Both the position numbers and the translations under genes were made by a program. Positions 3,220 through 30,483 of a stretch of 31,788 nt of DNA are shown here, in pieces. The notes below the pieces were generated by a model, which saw only the letters and a program-made list of their open reading frames with translations, searched no databases and had not been told where the DNA came from. The stretch's first letter is position 1; each line of letters starts with the position of its first letter. This stretch comes from a virus. The stretch is from positions 1 through 31,788 of the IMG/VR virus record IMGVR_UViG_3300020219_000049; one strand, written 5' to 3'.

Positions 3220-3687
3220 GTGGTTATTGAAATTAAACGTGGTCCATGCTCAAGCTGCCCTTATCGTAAAGACGTTCCGAGTGGCGTGTGGGAGGCAGAA
3301 GAGTACGACAAGCTGTCTGCGTATGACGGCGACATCATGTACCAACCAGCACGGTGGTTCATGTGCCACAACCAGGACAACAGTCTGTGCCGAGGGTGGC
3401 TCGATTGCCACGGTGAAGAATTGTTGGGCGTCAGGCTTGCGCTCGCAAAGGGTGAGTTGGATATAGATGAATACAAGAAGGCCATGGCGGAAGATCCACT
3501 GGTTCCTGTATTTCAGAGTGGGGCTGCCGCTGCCAAGCACGGCAAGAAGAAAGTAAAGAAGCCGACTACCGAAGCGCAGAAGCAGGTTGCTAAAATCTTA
3601 GAGAATCGCAGAAAGAACGCAGCGATTCGGGCTAAGTTGAAGATCTTAGAGACTCGCAGAAAAGAACTGGAAGGGCGTACGACATGA
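3220..3687 (+). CDS. DUF6283-like cysteine-rich phage protein
   Basis: A 155-residue protein starting with GTG directly after the previous stop. The N-terminal 65 residues match the small phage family I know as DUF6283: CSSCPYRKDVPSGVWEAEEY, an aspartate-rich YDG, then FMCH and CRGWLDCHG, which together could coordinate zinc. The C-terminal 60 residues are Lys/Arg/Ala-rich and helical (KKKVKKPTTEAQKQVAK), suited to nucleic-acid binding or a coiled coil. Function is unknown. The last 4 nt overlap an ATG at 3684 in frame with the following gene. Confidence 0.7.
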   Translation: MVIEIKRGPCSSCPYRKDVPSGVWEAEEYDKLSAYDGDIMYQPARWFMCHNQDNSLCRGWLDCHGEELLGVRLALAKGELDIDEYKKAMAEDPLVPVFQSGAAAAKHGKKKVKKPTTEAQKQVAKILENRRKNAAIRAKLKILETRRKELEGRTT

Positions 3688-3718
3688 CCATCCACCCTGA
3701 AAGCCTTGACGATATTTC

Positions 3719-3745
3719 AGCAATCGAACGAATGAACACAGAGGG
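3719..3745 (+). repeat. isolated partial copy of the CRISPR repeat
   Basis: These 27 nt match the 3' three quarters of the 36-nt repeat of the 7572-8115 array with one mismatch (A at 3740 where the repeat has T). The match starts at AGCAATCGAACG and ends at GAGGG. A Shine-Dalgarno sequence and ATG follow after 13 nt, the same spacing as after the repeat of the module at 5162-5335. In both places the interval contains GGA and TGCAAT. No scaffold precedes this copy. Confidence 0.75.
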
Positions 3746-3758
3746 AGGAAATGCAATC

Positions 3759-4094
3759 ATGGGAATGAATTTATCTGTATATGTCGGGCCATATTTTATC
3801 ATTGCCAAGGAAAGTTGTTTTCGATGGATGGATTGGGAAAACGTATTGTGCGACGGGCGAGGTGAAGCTGGAGTTGACGAATCAGATTTGATACTAATTC
3901 CTAACCGGAAGCTGGATGGCGTCGAGCGACCAATGCACATCGACGGCGAGCAAGGCACGATCCAGATTAACCCAGCAATGATAGTTAAGGAGACAGCGGC
4001 ATTCGTTCGACTAGCCGATGAAGTCATCCGGCATTGCGACGACAGGCTCATTGAAATTAGGGAAGCGTGGGGCGTCGTTCCGTGTTGGTCTTAG
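3759..4094 (+). CDS. hypothetical phage protein (MNLSVYVGPY type)
   Basis: The product from ATG 3759 has 111 residues and begins MGMNLSVYVGPYFII, a pattern I associate with small phage proteins of unknown function. GGGAGGAA at 3743-3750 lies 8 nt before this ATG, which favours it. An alternative in-frame start at 3684 overlaps the previous stop (ATGA) and would add 25 residues encoded through the partial CRISPR repeat. Cysteines are present (SCFRW, CDGRG, HCDD) but no clear zinc site. The repeat-like leader at 3719-3745 makes its regulation interesting. Confidence 0.6.
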   Translation: MGMNLSVYVGPYFIIAKESCFRWMDWENVLCDGRGEAGVDESDLILIPNRKLDGVERPMHIDGEQGTIQINPAMIVKETAAFVRLADEVIRHCDDRLIEIREAWGVVPCWS

Positions 4095-4112: not shown

Positions 4113-4319
4113 ATGAGCGAAAGCAAAGACACGACAAATGATTGTCAGTCGCGCGCGAGATCGCCCGACGAAATAGCATTGTCAATACAGGTTTTGAATC
4201 ATGAACTTGCACTCGGAAGTGCGATGCACGTTGTCGATATGCTTGTTGGCAATCCGTACTTCAAGGATCGTCGCGAAGAACTAATCAACACGATTGCTCA
4301 AGTGATTTCTCTTGCATAA
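4113..4319 (+). CDS. hypothetical protein, 68 aa
   Basis: ATG 4113 follows GAGAGGAAG at about 4100-4108, so I prefer it over a TTG at 4098 in the same frame. The product begins MSESKDTTNDCQSRARSPDE and is helical further on, with GSAMHVVDMLVGNPYF and an amphipathic C-terminus. It is the last gene of the small-gene run; a non-coding block follows. Function unknown. Confidence 0.55.
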   Translation: MSESKDTTNDCQSRARSPDEIALSIQVLNHELALGSAMHVVDMLVGNPYFKDRREELINTIAQVISLA

Positions 4320-4532
4320 AACCGTAAACAACGTAAACGGTTCTATTTCCTACTTCAACGAGACCCTAGTGGGCTACTCTCGGTAGGCTTTAATTCCCGG
4401 TCAAGCACCGGTATTTGGTTTCTAATGTTATACGCAAACAACTCTACGCCGTCAATCGCTTACGCTGTTTACGTTTTAATCAAACTGTTACTCACTATCG
4501 AATGTCAGGGAATAGGTAAAAAACGACCTTCG
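4320..4532 (+). other. non-coding block with dyads and GTAAAC/GTTTAC motifs
   Basis: No convincing gene. AACCGT (4320-4325) and ACGGTT (4337-4342) form a dyad that encloses two direct GTAAAC motifs (4324-4329, 4333-4338). AACGTAAAC at 4330-4338 is an exact inverted copy of GTTTACGTT at 4467-4475. Between them are a CCGGT/ACCGG hairpin near 4400-4415 and a weak stem-loop near 4372-4391. The block may terminate the upstream operon and carry regulator, replication or recombination sites. The sequence does not say which. Confidence 0.4.
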
Positions 4533-4624: not shown

Positions 4625-5140
4625 ATGGGAAATAGCGCCATCGGTGGAATCACAAGAAGTCGCCTTAAATCTGCCGTTACCAAAACTGGGGCGGATGATT
4701 TGGTAAACGCAATTCATTCCCGACTGATCTGCGAAGAGGTGACATTCGCGGAATCGGGTGTCGAAGGGGTTTACACCGGATCGGTTAGCGTTCCCGCACT
4801 CGCCACCATTATGGACATTATCGTAAACGGCGTCGTGCTTTGGGGGGCTGGGACTTCGGCAACCATGAAGGTTGGTGATGCGGCAGACGACGATGGCTAC
4901 TTTACCGCAGTGAACCTGAAGGCGACTGACTTGCTGGCTGCCGAGTCGATCAACTTCGCTTTTGCTGGTGGTAAGGCCGGTGCCTACATCGCCAACAGCC
5001 AAGTCTCTCCGCGTTATTCGGCAACTGCTCGGGTTATCAGCGGCGTCGTCACGACAGTTGGAACGACTTCAAGTGTAGGCCGAACTCGCATGACGGTTTA
5101 CTACAGCTTGCCTAAAGTCACTGCCGCCACGAAGGTTTAG
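4625..5140 (+). CDS. putative capsid decoration or minor virion protein
   Basis: A 171-residue protein. ATG 4625 has GGAG at 4612-4615 nine nt upstream; an in-frame TTG at 4616 is less likely. It is rich in Ala, Val, Thr and Gly. The central KVGDAADDDGYFTAVNLKAT and the C-terminal region ending GRTRMTVYYSLPKV have the beta-rich look of phage head-decoration or virion-surface proteins. I recognise that style but not a named family. It lies away from the main capsid genes, just upstream of a guide-RNA-like module and a second virion-type gene at 5562. Confidence 0.5.
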   Translation: MGNSAIGGITRSRLKSAVTKTGADDLVNAIHSRLICEEVTFAESGVEGVYTGSVSVPALATIMDIIVNGVVLWGAGTSATMKVGDAADDDGYFTAVNLKATDLLAAESINFAFAGGKAGAYIANSQVSPRYSATARVISGVVTTVGTTSSVGRTRMTVYYSLPKVTAATKV

Positions 5141-5161: not shown

Positions 5162-5335
5162 TCCTAGACGTTTCGCAAGATACGTCGAGAGTTGGCCACC
5201 TCCAGGCCGACAGTGAGCATCTAGGTAACAATGAGAGTATCAAGGTGCTCGCAGAAGGCCGAAAACAGGCGGGGATAAACAGGGTAAATCCTGACGGCCC
5301 CCGCAGTGAACAATCGAACGAATGATCACTGAGGG
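5162..5335 (+). ncRNA. guide-RNA-like scaffold plus one CRISPR repeat (copy A)
   Basis: Nearly identical to 7423-7607 and 30177-30361 from TCCTAGACG onward. It ends in a full 36-nt repeat at 5300-5335 that carries two variants: A at 5310 and T at 5326. The first hairpin (CTAGACGT with ACGTCGAG) has one mismatched pair here. GCGGGG in the scaffold can pair with CCCCGC at the start of the repeat. DNA directly after the repeat (from 5336) would be the guide if this is transcribed as a single RNA. That DNA is the ribosome-binding site and start of the gene at 5349. No promoter specific to this copy is evident, so readthrough from 4533 is likely. Confidence 0.65.
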
Positions 5336-6112: not shown

Positions 6113-7597
6113 ATGGCAATGCGCACTGTTTCGATTCCCATCGCTGAGTGCATTTCGAACACCAAAACCGAGCTTTACGCGGCATTGCAAAAATCACTTG
6201 ACGCCTCTCGCGTGGTCGCTAATATCGCTGCTACAGAATGCTTGCGGCAAGATAATTTGCAGATGGAAAAGTGCCCTAAAATCTACACTTACCCGGCGTG
6301 CAAAGGCTTATTCGAAGGTGTCTCATTTATGGTCTCTTCGGTTTGCCGCGCTGTGGAATCGGCGTATAAGAAAAAGCGGTGGAGAATGATCCGAGGCATG
6401 GAAGCAAGCCGTAGCTATCGGTCGCAGCCTTGGCCGATGCTCAATAATAAATCATGCTCTACATTCACAATCGATGATGAAGGAGAGTTTCTGACGTGTC
6501 GCATTAAGCTACTGGACGATTGGTTCGTAGTCCGGTTAGCCGGTGGAGTTAGCCATCGCGATCAAATTAAAGGCTTGCGAAGGGCGATTGCAAGTGATGG
6601 AGTCTGCGATTCTAAGTTGTGGATCGATCGAAAAAACAAGGCGATTATTGGCTTTTCTTGCGACGTAGCTGTTGCCGAGAACAAGCAGAAGCCTGATTGT
6701 GAAGTGCGGATATCTAGCGGAGTTGATTACCTACTTGGACTTACGCAAGATCGCGTTCAATCGCCATGGGTTGTCAACGCAGATGAGGTCATTTTATGGA
6801 AGGCTGAATCCACTAGGCGCAACCAACGCTATAGGCAGTCGCGAAAGCAAGGCGTCGATAGGCGACGACTCAAGGAAGAATCTAAAGCATTTGCGGATAA
6901 GATGGCAAGAAGGTTGGCGACAAAGATACACACATCGACCAGTCAAATTGTTGACAAGGCTATTAAGATTGGAGCGGCGAGAGTCAAGCTAGACTTAACA
7001 ATCAAAAGCTTCGCAACTGAATTTCCCTGGTATGATTTGGCTAACAAGATAAAATACAAATGCGAGTCTGCTGGAATCGAAGTCATTGACGCTACGCAAA
7101 CAGTCGCTCAACCGGACTGCGAAAAGCCGCATGTTTATTTTGCTTACGACTTGCATTCGCATCGGGTAAAAATAGGAAGAACTCAAGGCGGAAAAGATCG
7201 TCTAAAAGCATTCTGGACTATGCAGCCAGATTTGATTTTGCTTGCGGTTGACAATCGTGCGCAATCGAGGCTGGTTGCGATGGAAAAACACTATCACGCA
7301 TATTTCGACAATCATCGCGTGGTAAATCGAGACAAATCAGGTCGCGAGTTATTCGCGGCTGATCCTGTATTGCAATGGTTGCGAGCGGTTGGGTGGCTCG
7401 GAAATGCCGGGAACCTCTCGCAGATCATGCAAGTCCTAGACGTGTCGCAAGATACGTCTAGAGTTGGCCACCTCCAGGCCGACAGTGAGCATCTAGGTAA
7501 CAATGAGAGTATCAAGGTGCTCGCAGAAGGCCGAAAACAGGCGGGGATAAACAGGGTAAATCCTGACGGCCCCCGCAGTGAGCAATCGAACGAATGA
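6113..7597 (+). CDS. Cas12/TnpB-like RNA-guided protein with C-terminal T5orf172 (GIY-YIG) domain
   Basis: A 494-residue protein from ATG 6113; no clear Shine-Dalgarno. Residues 1-110 are helical and end in SYRSQPWP, like the N-terminal lobe of small Cas12/TnpB proteins. Residues 116-200 form a beta-rich wedge-like region. D205 in SGVDYLLGL sits where the RuvC-I Asp is expected. A basic bridge-helix-like segment follows (about 231-270), then STSQIVDKAIKIGAARVKLD, where D294 replaces the usual RuvC-II Glu. ESAGIEVIDATQTVAQ (318-333) matches the strand before a TnpB zinc ribbon. The ribbon and RuvC-III are absent. Instead residues 339-425 look like T5orf172: HVYFAYD, VKIGRT, DRLKAF, EKHYHAYF and SGRELFAA. 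The last 54 codons overlap the RNA scaffold, and the stop lies in the first repeat. The RuvC site is probably inactive, with GIY-YIG providing cutting or binding. The fold call is by eye. Confidence 0.7.
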   Translation: MAMRTVSIPIAECISNTKTELYAALQKSLDASRVVANIAATECLRQDNLQMEKCPKIYTYPACKGLFEGVSFMVSSVCRAVESAYKKKRWRMIRGMEASRSYRSQPWPMLNNKSCSTFTIDDEGEFLTCRIKLLDDWFVVRLAGGVSHRDQIKGLRRAIASDGVCDSKLWIDRKNKAIIGFSCDVAVAENKQKPDCEVRISSGVDYLLGLTQDRVQSPWVVNADEVILWKAESTRRNQRYRQSRKQGVDRRRLKEESKAFADKMARRLATKIHTSTSQIVDKAIKIGAARVKLDLTIKSFATEFPWYDLANKIKYKCESAGIEVIDATQTVAQPDCEKPHVYFAYDLHSHRVKIGRTQGGKDRLKAFWTMQPDLILLAVDNRAQSRLVAMEKHYHAYFDNHRVVNRDKSGRELFAADPVLQWLRAVGWLGNAGNLSQIMQVLDVSQDTSRVGHLQADSEHLGNNESIKVLAEGRKQAGINRVNPDGPRSEQSNE

Positions 7598-7607
7598 TCA
7601 CTGAGGG
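7423..7607 (+). ncRNA. guide-RNA scaffold plus first CRISPR repeat (copy B, array leader)
   Basis: Structured DNA overlapping the 3' end of the Cas12-like gene and running directly into the array. Hairpin 1 is CTAGACGT (7436-7443) with ACGTCTAG (7454-7461), 8 bp perfect. Hairpin 2 is TTGGCC (7464-7469) with GGCCGA (7477-7482). GCGGGG (7541-7546) pairs with CCCCGC (7571-7576) at the start of the repeat and encloses a CAGG/CCTG stem. CAGTGAGCA at 7483-7491 also occurs in the repeat. By analogy with omega RNA and tracrRNA-crRNA duplexes, this is probably the scaffold that the nuclease binds. Confidence 0.7.
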
Positions 7608-8115
7608 GCTAACGGAAAGCCGTTTTGTGTACAAGACTTGCTGACCCGCAGTGAGCAATCGAACGAATGAACACTGAGGGCTGCCAAACTTGTCCATTGG
7701 CCAATGTGACTACTGAACCCCGCAGTGAGCAATCGAACGAATGAACACTGAGGGGAGACCGTAGTTTAGCGACCGTCCCTCAGTGTTCATCCCGCAGTGA
7801 GCAATCGAACGAATGAACACTGAGGGGTGGTGCCAAATCTTTGGGGATGTGTTGTTGGGCGTCCCCGCAGTGAGCAATCGAACGAATGAACACTGAGGGA
7901 CCCAGGCTGCGTTTGTTTCGCGCGGCATGGATTTCCCCGCAGTGAGCAATCGAACGAATGAACACTGAGGGCGTAAGTTGCCAAAGCTTGTCCGATCTAA
8001 GCGTTGCACCCGCAGTGAGCAATCGAACGAATGAACACTGAGGGGAGCAGACCTGACACTTTCCTTTTACCCCCGCCTTCCCGCAGTGAGCAATCGAACG
8101 AATGAACACTGAGGG
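7572..8115 (+). CRISPR. CRISPR array, 8 repeats of 36 nt and 7 spacers
   Basis: Repeats start at 7572, 7645, 7719, 7791, 7864, 7936, 8009 and 8080, each 36 nt. Spacers are 37, 38, 36, 37, 36, 37 and 35 nt and differ from one another. All repeats are identical except the first, which has T instead of A at 7598. The ends CCCGCAGTG and CACTGAGGG form a 9-bp stem with one mismatch. The first repeat is continuous with scaffold B. Spacer 3 (7755-7790) ends in a 14-nt inverted copy of the repeat's 3' end. There is no cas1, cas2 or cas4 nearby. The array ends 25 nt before the gene at 8141. Confidence 0.95.
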
Positions 8116-8389: not shown

Positions 8390-8404
8390 AGTCAGAGAAC
8401 GATG

Positions 8405-8962
8405 TTACGGGTCCAAATGATACTTAATAATCCGCAGAGATTCTTCGATAGTTGCCTGAATGGCGCGGCGACTGAAGCGAGTCTTGAACGCAGAGCCATG
8501 CCTCATGATAAAAGTATGGTTAGTTTGCTCGGTAGTCTTTTTGATGGATGATCCGCACTTGATGTAGAGAGTGGTAACCAGGACTTGGAAGTCCGTTAGT
8601 CCCGATCCGGTTATGAGAGACGTCTCACCATCTAGATCGCTGGCTACTGAGCGATAGTCGATTACCTCGGTGGTGGCTTCCGGCATTGGCGACAGCCGCT
8701 TAATGATCCTCGGAATCCGTCGACACTTGCATTTGACAAACGTGGTGAGCTCGCCAGCTTCGGGATCGTAACTTTCGATGTCACTAATGATCTCAACCAA
8801 GATCTCTGAGTAAATGTCCTCTCGATCAACTCCGTTTGGAATGTTGGATCTCCCTATCGTTGCGAGAATCCATGGGCGAATGGCTTGAAGTATCGGTGTG
8901 ATTGCTTCTCTGTCACCGTTTGTATATTGTCTGACAAGGGCAGTGACGGTATGCTTGTCCAT
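8405..8962 (-). CDS. RNA polymerase sigma-70-like factor (ECF type)
   Basis: Encodes 185 residues from the ATG at 8962 (a TTG at 8986 could extend it by 8). Residues about 35-90 match sigma region 2: VDREDIYSEILVEIISDIES, YDPEAGELTTFVKCKCRRIP. This resembles the D-L-x-Q-E-x-F pattern and the F-D-P-x-x-G-x-F-x-x-W block of ECF factors. The C-terminal part (SIKKTTEQTNHTFIMRHGSA) may be a divergent region 4 HTH. A phage sigma-like factor could redirect host polymerase to phage promoters, or it could be a recombinase-linked regulator. It is divergent from the recombinase at 9003, with a 40-nt gap. Confidence 0.65.
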   Translation of the reverse strand: MDKHTVTALVRQYTNGDREAITPILQAIRPWILATIGRSNIPNGVDREDIYSEILVEIISDIESYDPEAGELTTFVKCKCRRIPRIIKRLSPMPEATTEVIDYRSVASDLDGETSLITGSGLTDFQVLVTTLYIKCGSSIKKTTEQTNHTFIMRHGSAFKTRFSRRAIQATIEESLRIIKYHLDP

Positions 8963-9002
8963 AGGGCGTGATGCTAGTTGAATCAATTCGAGGGGCTTCT
9001 CA

Positions 9003-29311: not shown

Positions 29312-30178
29312 ATGCGTCAATTTCTCTCGATGCTTATTTTGGGACTTCTGGCCGGAAGTTCGCACGGTCAGCTTTTATCGCGGATGTTTGGATCTCCAAA
29401 GTATTCATCGAACTGCCCCGGTGGAGTTTGTCCAACCTCGAACAACTGGTCAAACAACGACGGATTGTCTCGGCGCGATCACCTGGAGCACGTTCACGGA
29501 ACAAGCACAAGTGGTATGACCGAATCGCAGGTCAGAGCTGAGCAAAACCGCTATCACAATAAGTATGGTGCTGGTCATCCAGTGCAGCAGCCGGCACAGT
29601 ACGCGGCGGTTCAATCGGCTCCTCGGCCATACATCCAGAATGCACAACAGCCTGTGGCATCTGGTGGCTCTGGTGGCTCCAGTGGCAATCTAGCGGTCGG
29701 GATGGTTTATCGCGGCGAAATTGTGGCGTCGATTGGAAGCCCGATAGTCGAATCTATGCAGTCCGATTCAAATCTGATGGCTGGTCCAATCCGCGAAAGA
29801 ATCGGCAGCAATCGACAATTCCGTAAGGTGCTCTTGGAAGCAGCCAGCAAAGCGGTATCCGATGGCACGCTGTCAGAGGCACGGTACAACGCACTTCGGT
29901 TGCAGAGTCTTAGTCCTCGCAAGCTAGAGGAAATCAAATCGCAGGTCGGCTCATTCGCGGCCGAGGAAGGTGTGCTGAGTTCTGCGGTCGGCATCGATTG
30001 GAGCAAGATCGACTGGGAAAAGTTGATGACCTTCATCGTCAAGTGGCTGCCTGTGATTATCAATCTGTTCGGCAATTCCGATCAGGTCGGCATGATGGCT
30101 CCGTCACCAATGCCACTGGTTCAGACTCGCGAATTTTATCAGACTCGCGAATTCTACACGGGTTTAATTGCCATTTGA
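29312..30178 (+). CDS. exported protein with signal peptide, Gly/Ser linker and hydrophobic C-terminus
   Basis: A 288-residue protein. ATG 29312 follows AAGGA at 29301-29305. The N-terminus MRQFLSMLILGLLAGSSHGQ is a Sec-type signal peptide. Residues 27-70 have CPGGVCPTSNN and RRDHLEHVHGTST; a GSGGSSGN linker near 120 follows. The C-terminal part includes LMTFIVKWLPVIINLFGN, one hydrophobic segment, and ends with a repeated QTREFY. The stop codon at 30176-30178 overlaps the first bases of guide module C. A surface, lysis or adsorption role is possible; no family recognised. Confidence 0.6.
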   Translation: MRQFLSMLILGLLAGSSHGQLLSRMFGSPKYSSNCPGGVCPTSNNWSNNDGLSRRDHLEHVHGTSTSGMTESQVRAEQNRYHNKYGAGHPVQQPAQYAAVQSAPRPYIQNAQQPVASGGSGGSSGNLAVGMVYRGEIVASIGSPIVESMQSDSNLMAGPIRERIGSNRQFRKVLLEAASKAVSDGTLSEARYNALRLQSLSPRKLEEIKSQVGSFAAEEGVLSSAVGIDWSKIDWEKLMTFIVKWLPVIINLFGNSDQVGMMAPSPMPLVQTREFYQTREFYTGLIAI

Positions 30179-30361
30179 TCATGCAAGTCCTAGACGTGTC
30201 GCAAGATACGTCTAGAGTTGGCCACCTCCAGGCCGACAGCGAGCATCTAGGTAACAATGAGAGTATCAAGGTGCTCGCAGAAGGCCGAAAACAGGCGGGG
30301 ATAAATAGGGTAAATCCTGACGGCCCCCGCAGTGAGCAATCGAACGAATGAACACTGAGGG
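30177..30361 (+). ncRNA. guide-RNA-like scaffold plus one CRISPR repeat (copy C)
   Basis: Same sequence as copy B (7423-7607) from GATCATGCAAG onward except for a few changes; the full repeat is 30326-30361 with the array-type A at base 27. The 8-bp first hairpin and the GCGGGG/CCCCGC pairing are kept. The candidate guide starts at 30362 (ACCACCGG...). The region to 30483 then holds a CTGGAG/CTCCAG hairpin (30414-30435), a short GAAG/CTTC stem and a T run near 30452, possibly an RNA 3' end, and AAGGAG before the next ATG. It stands between two exported-protein genes. Confidence 0.65.
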
Positions 30362-30483
30362 ACCACCGGAAAAGAGAAGGCCAAACTTGGAAGCTATAAG
30401 GTTTTACTGAAAATCTGGAGAAAAAAGCAACTCCAGAAGGGCTTCCCCGGTGACTTTTAATCGTAGTAATAAAAGGAGTATAT

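Follow-up and report, generated by a model that had tools for sequence, protein, structure and literature searches.

Clustered regularly interspaced short palindromic repeats (CRISPR) effectors of the Cas9 and Cas12 groups are taken to cut with their RuvC (and HNH) domains, and we know of no described Cas12 with a GIY-YIG domain. A search of open-licence papers for a GIY-YIG Cas12 or TnpB returned none. The tnpB gene overlaps its omega-RNA (PMC10097598). In the solved guide RNA of Cas12f, the loop of stem 3 forms the first anti-repeat pairing (AR:R1), stem 4 comes next and the 3′ end of the trans-activating CRISPR RNA (tracrRNA) forms the second, AR:R2 (PMC8053092). The locus described here lies in the virus record IMGVR_UViG_3300020219_000049 of IMG/VR, all 31,788 nucleotides (nt) of which were analysed (the window), and comprises an effector gene, an RNA scaffold at its 3′ end and a CRISPR-like array, all on the plus strand. 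An earlier note, made from the sequence alone, had described base pairing between the scaffold and the first repeat at 7541–7576 and read it as a fold like that of a single guide RNA. Our analysis supports the observation as right and the interpretation as largely right: as judged by sequence comparison, the pairing is anti-repeat 2 (AR:R2) of a Cas12f-like guide RNA.

Two anti-repeats in the predicted guide RNA

GCGGGG (7541–7546) is complementary to CCCCGC (7571–7576), which spans the start of the repeat at 7572, and an inner hairpin (7552–7565) is formed between them by CAGG (7552–7555) and CCTG (7562–7565), with letters and coordinates exactly as first reported. The minimum-free-energy fold of 7423–7607 includes exactly this helix and its inner hairpin, and none of 200 shuffles folded as well (z = −6.2). 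A lone 6-nt complementarity is near chance, as by our estimate about 4% of 150-nt scaffolds would match a given hexamer; the match is lifted above chance because the corresponding RNA of a homologous locus, L162, folds on its own into the same topology. We consider it very likely that anti-repeat 2 is real. The fold that had been proposed for scaffold and repeat holds for this helix but has to be amended for its surroundings, as a further helix, S1 (7530–7570; GCCG at 7530–7533 with CGGC at 7567–7570), interlocks with anti-repeat 2 in a pseudoknot, and a nested fold cannot display both. In this scaffold-plus-repeat unit (unit B), the GGCC half-sites are also able to pair with 7529–7532, and several folds compete. 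No Rfam family matched.

The scaffold begins with a 5′ hairpin (7436–7461) that is perfect over 11 pairs, including G-U, bearing out the mention of other near-perfect hairpins, and that has a GCAA loop of the GNRA type (GGAA in the L162 counterpart). It is followed by a Stem-3-like hairpin, GGCC-ACCTCCA-GGCC (7466–7480), all 15 nt of which are invariant in L162. The loop of this hairpin contains anti-repeat 1, CCUC (7471–7474), which is complementary to the 3′ end of the repeat, GAGG (7603–7606). A long Stem-4-like hairpin (7485–7524) is present in the minimum-energy fold, with a stem-loop at the equivalent place in L162, and the 3′ anti-repeat comes last. This is the order of elements in the Cas12f guide RNA, and a tracrRNA with two anti-repeats that pair with the repeat is a type V-F feature found here (compared with PMC8053092). 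A match between loop and repeat end, in other letters, was also found directly behind canonical Cas12f-like genes, namely CCUGCG/CGCAGG at locus L137 and GUUGUGUC/GACACAAC at L136, and the window repeat resembles that of L137, a Cas12u3 locus (z 3.8).

The comparison to a single guide RNA stands in its Cas12f-like form, amended in that there are two anti-repeats and that the main guide-proximal pairing, CCUC/GAGG (AR:R1), had been missed. On these likenesses, the RNA is likely to be a Cas12f-like guide RNA serving the neighbouring effector, and the comparison lends further weight to the double anti-repeat plan of Cas12f RNAs.

Covariation in a distant homolog

L162, the sole family homolog found, was recovered from IMG/VR with a degenerate DNA pattern consisting of the TNB motif YKxExxG (TnpB/Cas12f), 72–102 nt and KIGxT. 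It is a 15.8-kb phage contig with the same order of effector, scaffold and array, in which the effector is 42% identical to that of the window over its whole length and the effector frame ends inside the scaffold. The array has 15 repeats of two types, CTCGAAGCATTTGGTCGAATTGACTGAGACTGAGGC in the six near the scaffold and CTCGAAGTGTCTGGTCGAATCGATTGATGCTGAGGG in the nine beyond. The minimum-energy fold of L162 itself consists of UCGGGG, 4 nt, CUCC, a 6-nt loop, GGAG, 4 nt and CCUCGA, and has the topology and loop size seen in the window.

The complementarity, for which a check of folds and covariation over homologs had been proposed, is kept in L162. In the alignment, with MAFFT columns left untouched, all six pairs of anti-repeat 2 are retained, one G-C having become U-A and one G-C a G-U wobble, and the inner stem (CUCC/GGAG) shows three further double changes. 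S1 is GCGG/CCGC in L162, with four of four pairs kept and one double change. All ten pairs of anti-repeat 2 and S1 are standard in all rows, and sliding the partner by 1–3 columns reduced this to 40–58%. A three-helix descriptor, composed after both sequences had been viewed, was satisfied at 14 of 14 pairs in both loci, five of them via double changes; on shuffles its maxima were 12 and 13, and 14 was reached in none of 1000 for each locus. The whole L162 RNA folds no better than its shuffles (z −0.7), and the support it provides is topological and covariational, not energetic.

The repeat ends also pair with each other, as had been noted, with CCCGCAGTG and CACTGAGGG forming eight of nine pairs in the window with one mismatch. 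This self-hairpin might be the working fold, used in processing of the CRISPR RNA (crRNA), with the GCGGGG/CCCCGC match a by-product. In L162, however, it shrinks to about 4 pairs while anti-repeat 2 keeps six of six, and minimum-energy folding of the scaffold with its repeat favours the anti-repeat at both loci, which makes this alternative improbable. Competing folds had been proposed and do exist in the window, but the self-hairpin is the less conserved of them. The proposal that GCGGG could act in trans as an anti-repeat for the other repeats fits both arrays: each of the eight repeats in the window begins with CCCGC, and each of the 15 in L162 with CTCGA.

Further searches added no second homolog. 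Scans of IMG/VR with protein patterns built on the full effector or on its C-terminal half failed to recover L162 or gave ordinary TnpBs. The 22 other stretches retrieved with the YKxExxG–KIGxT pattern were off-frame or unrelated proteins and not TnpB/Cas12 fusions. In 392 Planctomycetota genomes, a set that held no positive control, no homolog was found with the single sequence or the two-sequence profile. A search of genome contigs with a 15-nt pattern gave matches that were attributed to chance, the pattern being too short.

A Cas12f/TnpB relative with a GIY-YIG-like domain

The effector gene (6113–7597) is an open frame of 494 codons, the domains of which end near 7432; beyond this point the frame stays open across the scaffold and into repeat 1. 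Homology to Cas12f, a feature of type V-F, was found over residues 3–336 using PADLOC (Cas12f, E 4e-15; Cas12u3, E 4e-14), and the L162 protein likewise matches Cas12f/Cas12u3. A two-sequence profile including L162 matched Cas12f structures at profile positions 65–339 (E 9e-13). The RuvC D/E/D triad is missing in both homologs: Ser takes the position of the RuvC-I Asp, a gap that of the RuvC-II Glu, and RuvC-III is gone. The C-terminal zinc ribbon (TNB) is also lacking: the match to the TNB model stops after its first 22 positions, and the zinc ribbon and RuvC-III give way to a GIY-YIG-like domain (7094–7411). Because these two defining features fail, the effector, which groups by sequence with Cas12f/TnpB, is a variant and not a plain V-F member. 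In a protein tree, the window and L162 proteins were joined (100/100), and the pair was unplaced among Cas12f and TnpB.

The added domain matched two Pfam families of the GIY-YIG clan, T5orf172 (E 0.0015, 19.4 bits against a cut-off of 20) and MUG113 (E 0.04), and that of L162 matched MUG113 (E 3e-4, 21.7 bits against a cut-off of 22.3). The two domains are 51% identical and keep Y342, KIGRT (353–357), R363 and E391. In a low-confidence AlphaFold model, the predicted order of strands and helices fits GIY-YIG, and the top Foldseek matches were to UvrC GIY-YIG domains (E 0.13), which, given the weak model, are suggestive only. The effector appears to be a Cas12f/TnpB relative that has lost its RuvC site and carries a T5orf172/GIY-YIG-like domain in its place.

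Loss of RuvC in both proteins (through the Asp-to-Ser change, deletion of the Glu and lack of RuvC-III) would also be expected if the effector were an RNA-guided binder that blocks transcription, as Cas12m, TldR and naturally dead Cas12f do, with the GIY-YIG-like domain inactive or trimming the guide RNA. DNA-binding-only type V effectors with a dead RuvC are known (PMC10442227, PMC11013384). A pure binder would have no need for the added domain, however, and the retention of Y342, KIGRT, R363 and E391 at 51% identity is as expected of a domain in use. We regard the binder as possible but doubtful, and lean slightly towards DNA cutting by the GIY-YIG domain.

The array, its spacers and further scaffold copies

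The array (7572–8115) contains eight 36-nt repeats, starting at 7572, 7645, 7719, 7791, 7864, 7936, 8009 and 8080, and seven spacers of 35–38 nt. In a sibling contig, G001, that is 99.7% identical over 22 kb, spacers 2, 3 and 7 are common to both, spacer 1 is different and one other spacer replaces 4–6. The repeats are near-identical and the spacers unique and changing, as in CRISPR arrays. The differences from G001 indicate that the array is changing and that change occurs at the scaffold end; L162 points the same way, as one of its two repeat types is found only near the scaffold.

Two further scaffold-plus-repeat units are present elsewhere. Unit A (5162–5335), which has one repeat and no array, lies 3′ of a gene ending at 5140 and is 98% identical to unit B, while unit C (30177–30361), also with one repeat, starts at the stop codon of a gene ending at 30178 and is 97% identical to unit B. 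Units standing alone behind other genes, together with an effector frame that overlaps the scaffold, might indicate a TnpB-like homing element, in which the scaffold-repeat unit would be an omega-RNA guiding cutting of empty sites and the array a by-product of unit duplication. We consider this unlikely, as two phages have arrays (8 and 15 repeats) in which the 35–38-nt spacers are unrelated, near-identical genomes differ in their spacers, and the guides adjoining units A and C match nothing elsewhere in the genome.

Several other features of these repeats and spacers were observed. Spacer 3 (7755–7790) consists of the inverted last 14 nt of the repeat and 22 nt of other sequence, as if acquired from another array or unit, and would match the repeat-spacer junction of a relative; a search for it in IMG/VR found the sibling only. 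Two L162 spacers (reverse complement, 2706–2743 and 2913–2950), beginning CGCACACCTGCG and CGCACGCCTGCG, are one base apart. A weak match between the L162 array and a Microbacterium phage (E 0.09) spans both spacer and repeat and was taken as chance. The first part of the frame 3684–4094 contains a 27-nt piece (3719–3745) that matches the CRISPR repeat at 93% identity, just before AGGGAGGAAATGCAATCATG, and the repeat of unit A is likewise followed by GGAGGTGCAATAATG. A former unit could have left this piece behind, or the repeat end could act as a ribosome site or mask one. Behind unit C, the place of a spacer (30362–30455) is occupied by a long hairpin (CACCGG..CCGGTG) and not a simple guide.

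Proposed mechanism

At 7541–7576, the 3′ terminus of a tracrRNA-like scaffold would run directly into the first CRISPR repeat. With spacer 1, the RNA could act in cis as a natural single guide, and for the other spacers the same scaffold would pair in trans with crRNAs. The Cas12f/TnpB-type effector, no longer cutting with RuvC, would bind the scaffold RNA, locate DNA matching the spacer and cut or nick it via the attached GIY-YIG domain, probably as a phage weapon directed at rival phages or at other elements. Units A and C would be further scaffold-plus-repeat copies, situated within the 3′-terminal parts of other transcripts of the phage. This overall explanation, a Cas12f-like guide scaffold with a RuvC-dead, GIY-YIG-bearing effector used as a phage weapon, is one we hold to be probable.

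Several points weigh against it. L162 is a single distant homolog, so that the covariation amounts to one independent comparison; the GIY-YIG profile matches fall just under the curated cut-offs in both homologs; the AlphaFold models, from shallow alignments, are of low confidence (predicted local distance difference test scores of 47 and 50); no target was found for any spacer, the phage and plasmid collections searched giving no match; and cas1 and cas2 were not seen among the 30 window genes scanned. The lack of targets and the dead RuvC might suggest a decayed, non-functional remnant, but the protein frame is intact and 42% identical to that of L162, double changes preserve pairs in the RNA and the array changes between strains, leaving this reading very improbable.

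The chances are slightly better than even that the two loci represent a phage lineage of type V effectors in which RuvC was replaced by a GIY-YIG nuclease, that is, a natural RNA-guided GIY-YIG enzyme with Cas12f-type guides and a changing array. If this natural swap is true, it would show that the part of Cas12f responsible for RNA-guided targeting is able to bear a different nuclease, and the effector would offer a compact (about 440 amino acids) template for engineered nucleases and be an additional phage weapon with its own guide RNAs.

Other features of the phage record

The window is the entire virus record and includes tail tube, portal, capsid and recombinase genes. Searches with the terminase and portal found near-identical sibling contigs as the only relatives. 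Beside the array, 8405–8986 on the minus strand encodes a small protein with weak matches to sigma-70 region 2 and HTH_16, which was not seen adjoining the L162 locus. A 180-bp stretch (4308–4487), not far from the serine recombinase gene, is inverted in G001 and located there between window positions 8394 and 8395; it is a small mobile or invertible segment. The genes at the left end contain a 167-nt direct repeat (82% identity; 384–550 and 869–1035).

Comparison with known systems

TIGR-Tas was rejected as a relative, as the effector is Cas12f/TnpB-like and not a Nop-type Tas, and the spacers are 35–38 nt and not short and paired. The TnpB/omega-RNA systems share with the locus an ancestral effector fold, a single RNA that carries both scaffold and guide (unit B with spacer 1) and an effector frame overlapping the scaffold, as in L162. 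The locus differs in having an array of several spacers and an inactive RuvC; neither tnpA nor transposon ends were seen. Cas12m (type V-M), TldR and naturally dead Cas12f resemble it in having a type V or TnpB-like effector with an inactivated RuvC; to our knowledge, they carry no GIY-YIG domain.

The locus resembles type V-F Cas12f (Un1Cas12f1, AsCas12f1 and the Cas12u3/V-U3 models) in its effector, homologous over residues 3–336, in a guide RNA that meets the 3′ end of the repeat with a loop anti-repeat and its 5′ end with a 3′ anti-repeat, and in its 36-nt repeats behind the effector gene, which are similar to those of L137. It differs from these systems in lacking the RuvC site, in having a GIY-YIG-like domain where the zinc ribbon and RuvC-III would be, and in being phage-borne, with scaffold-repeat units also found alone at two other sites. 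A GIY-YIG nuclease tethered to a DNA-targeting module is found in I-TevI-type homing endonucleases and in the engineered TevCas9, whereas the targeting module here would be a natural Cas12f-like ribonucleoprotein.
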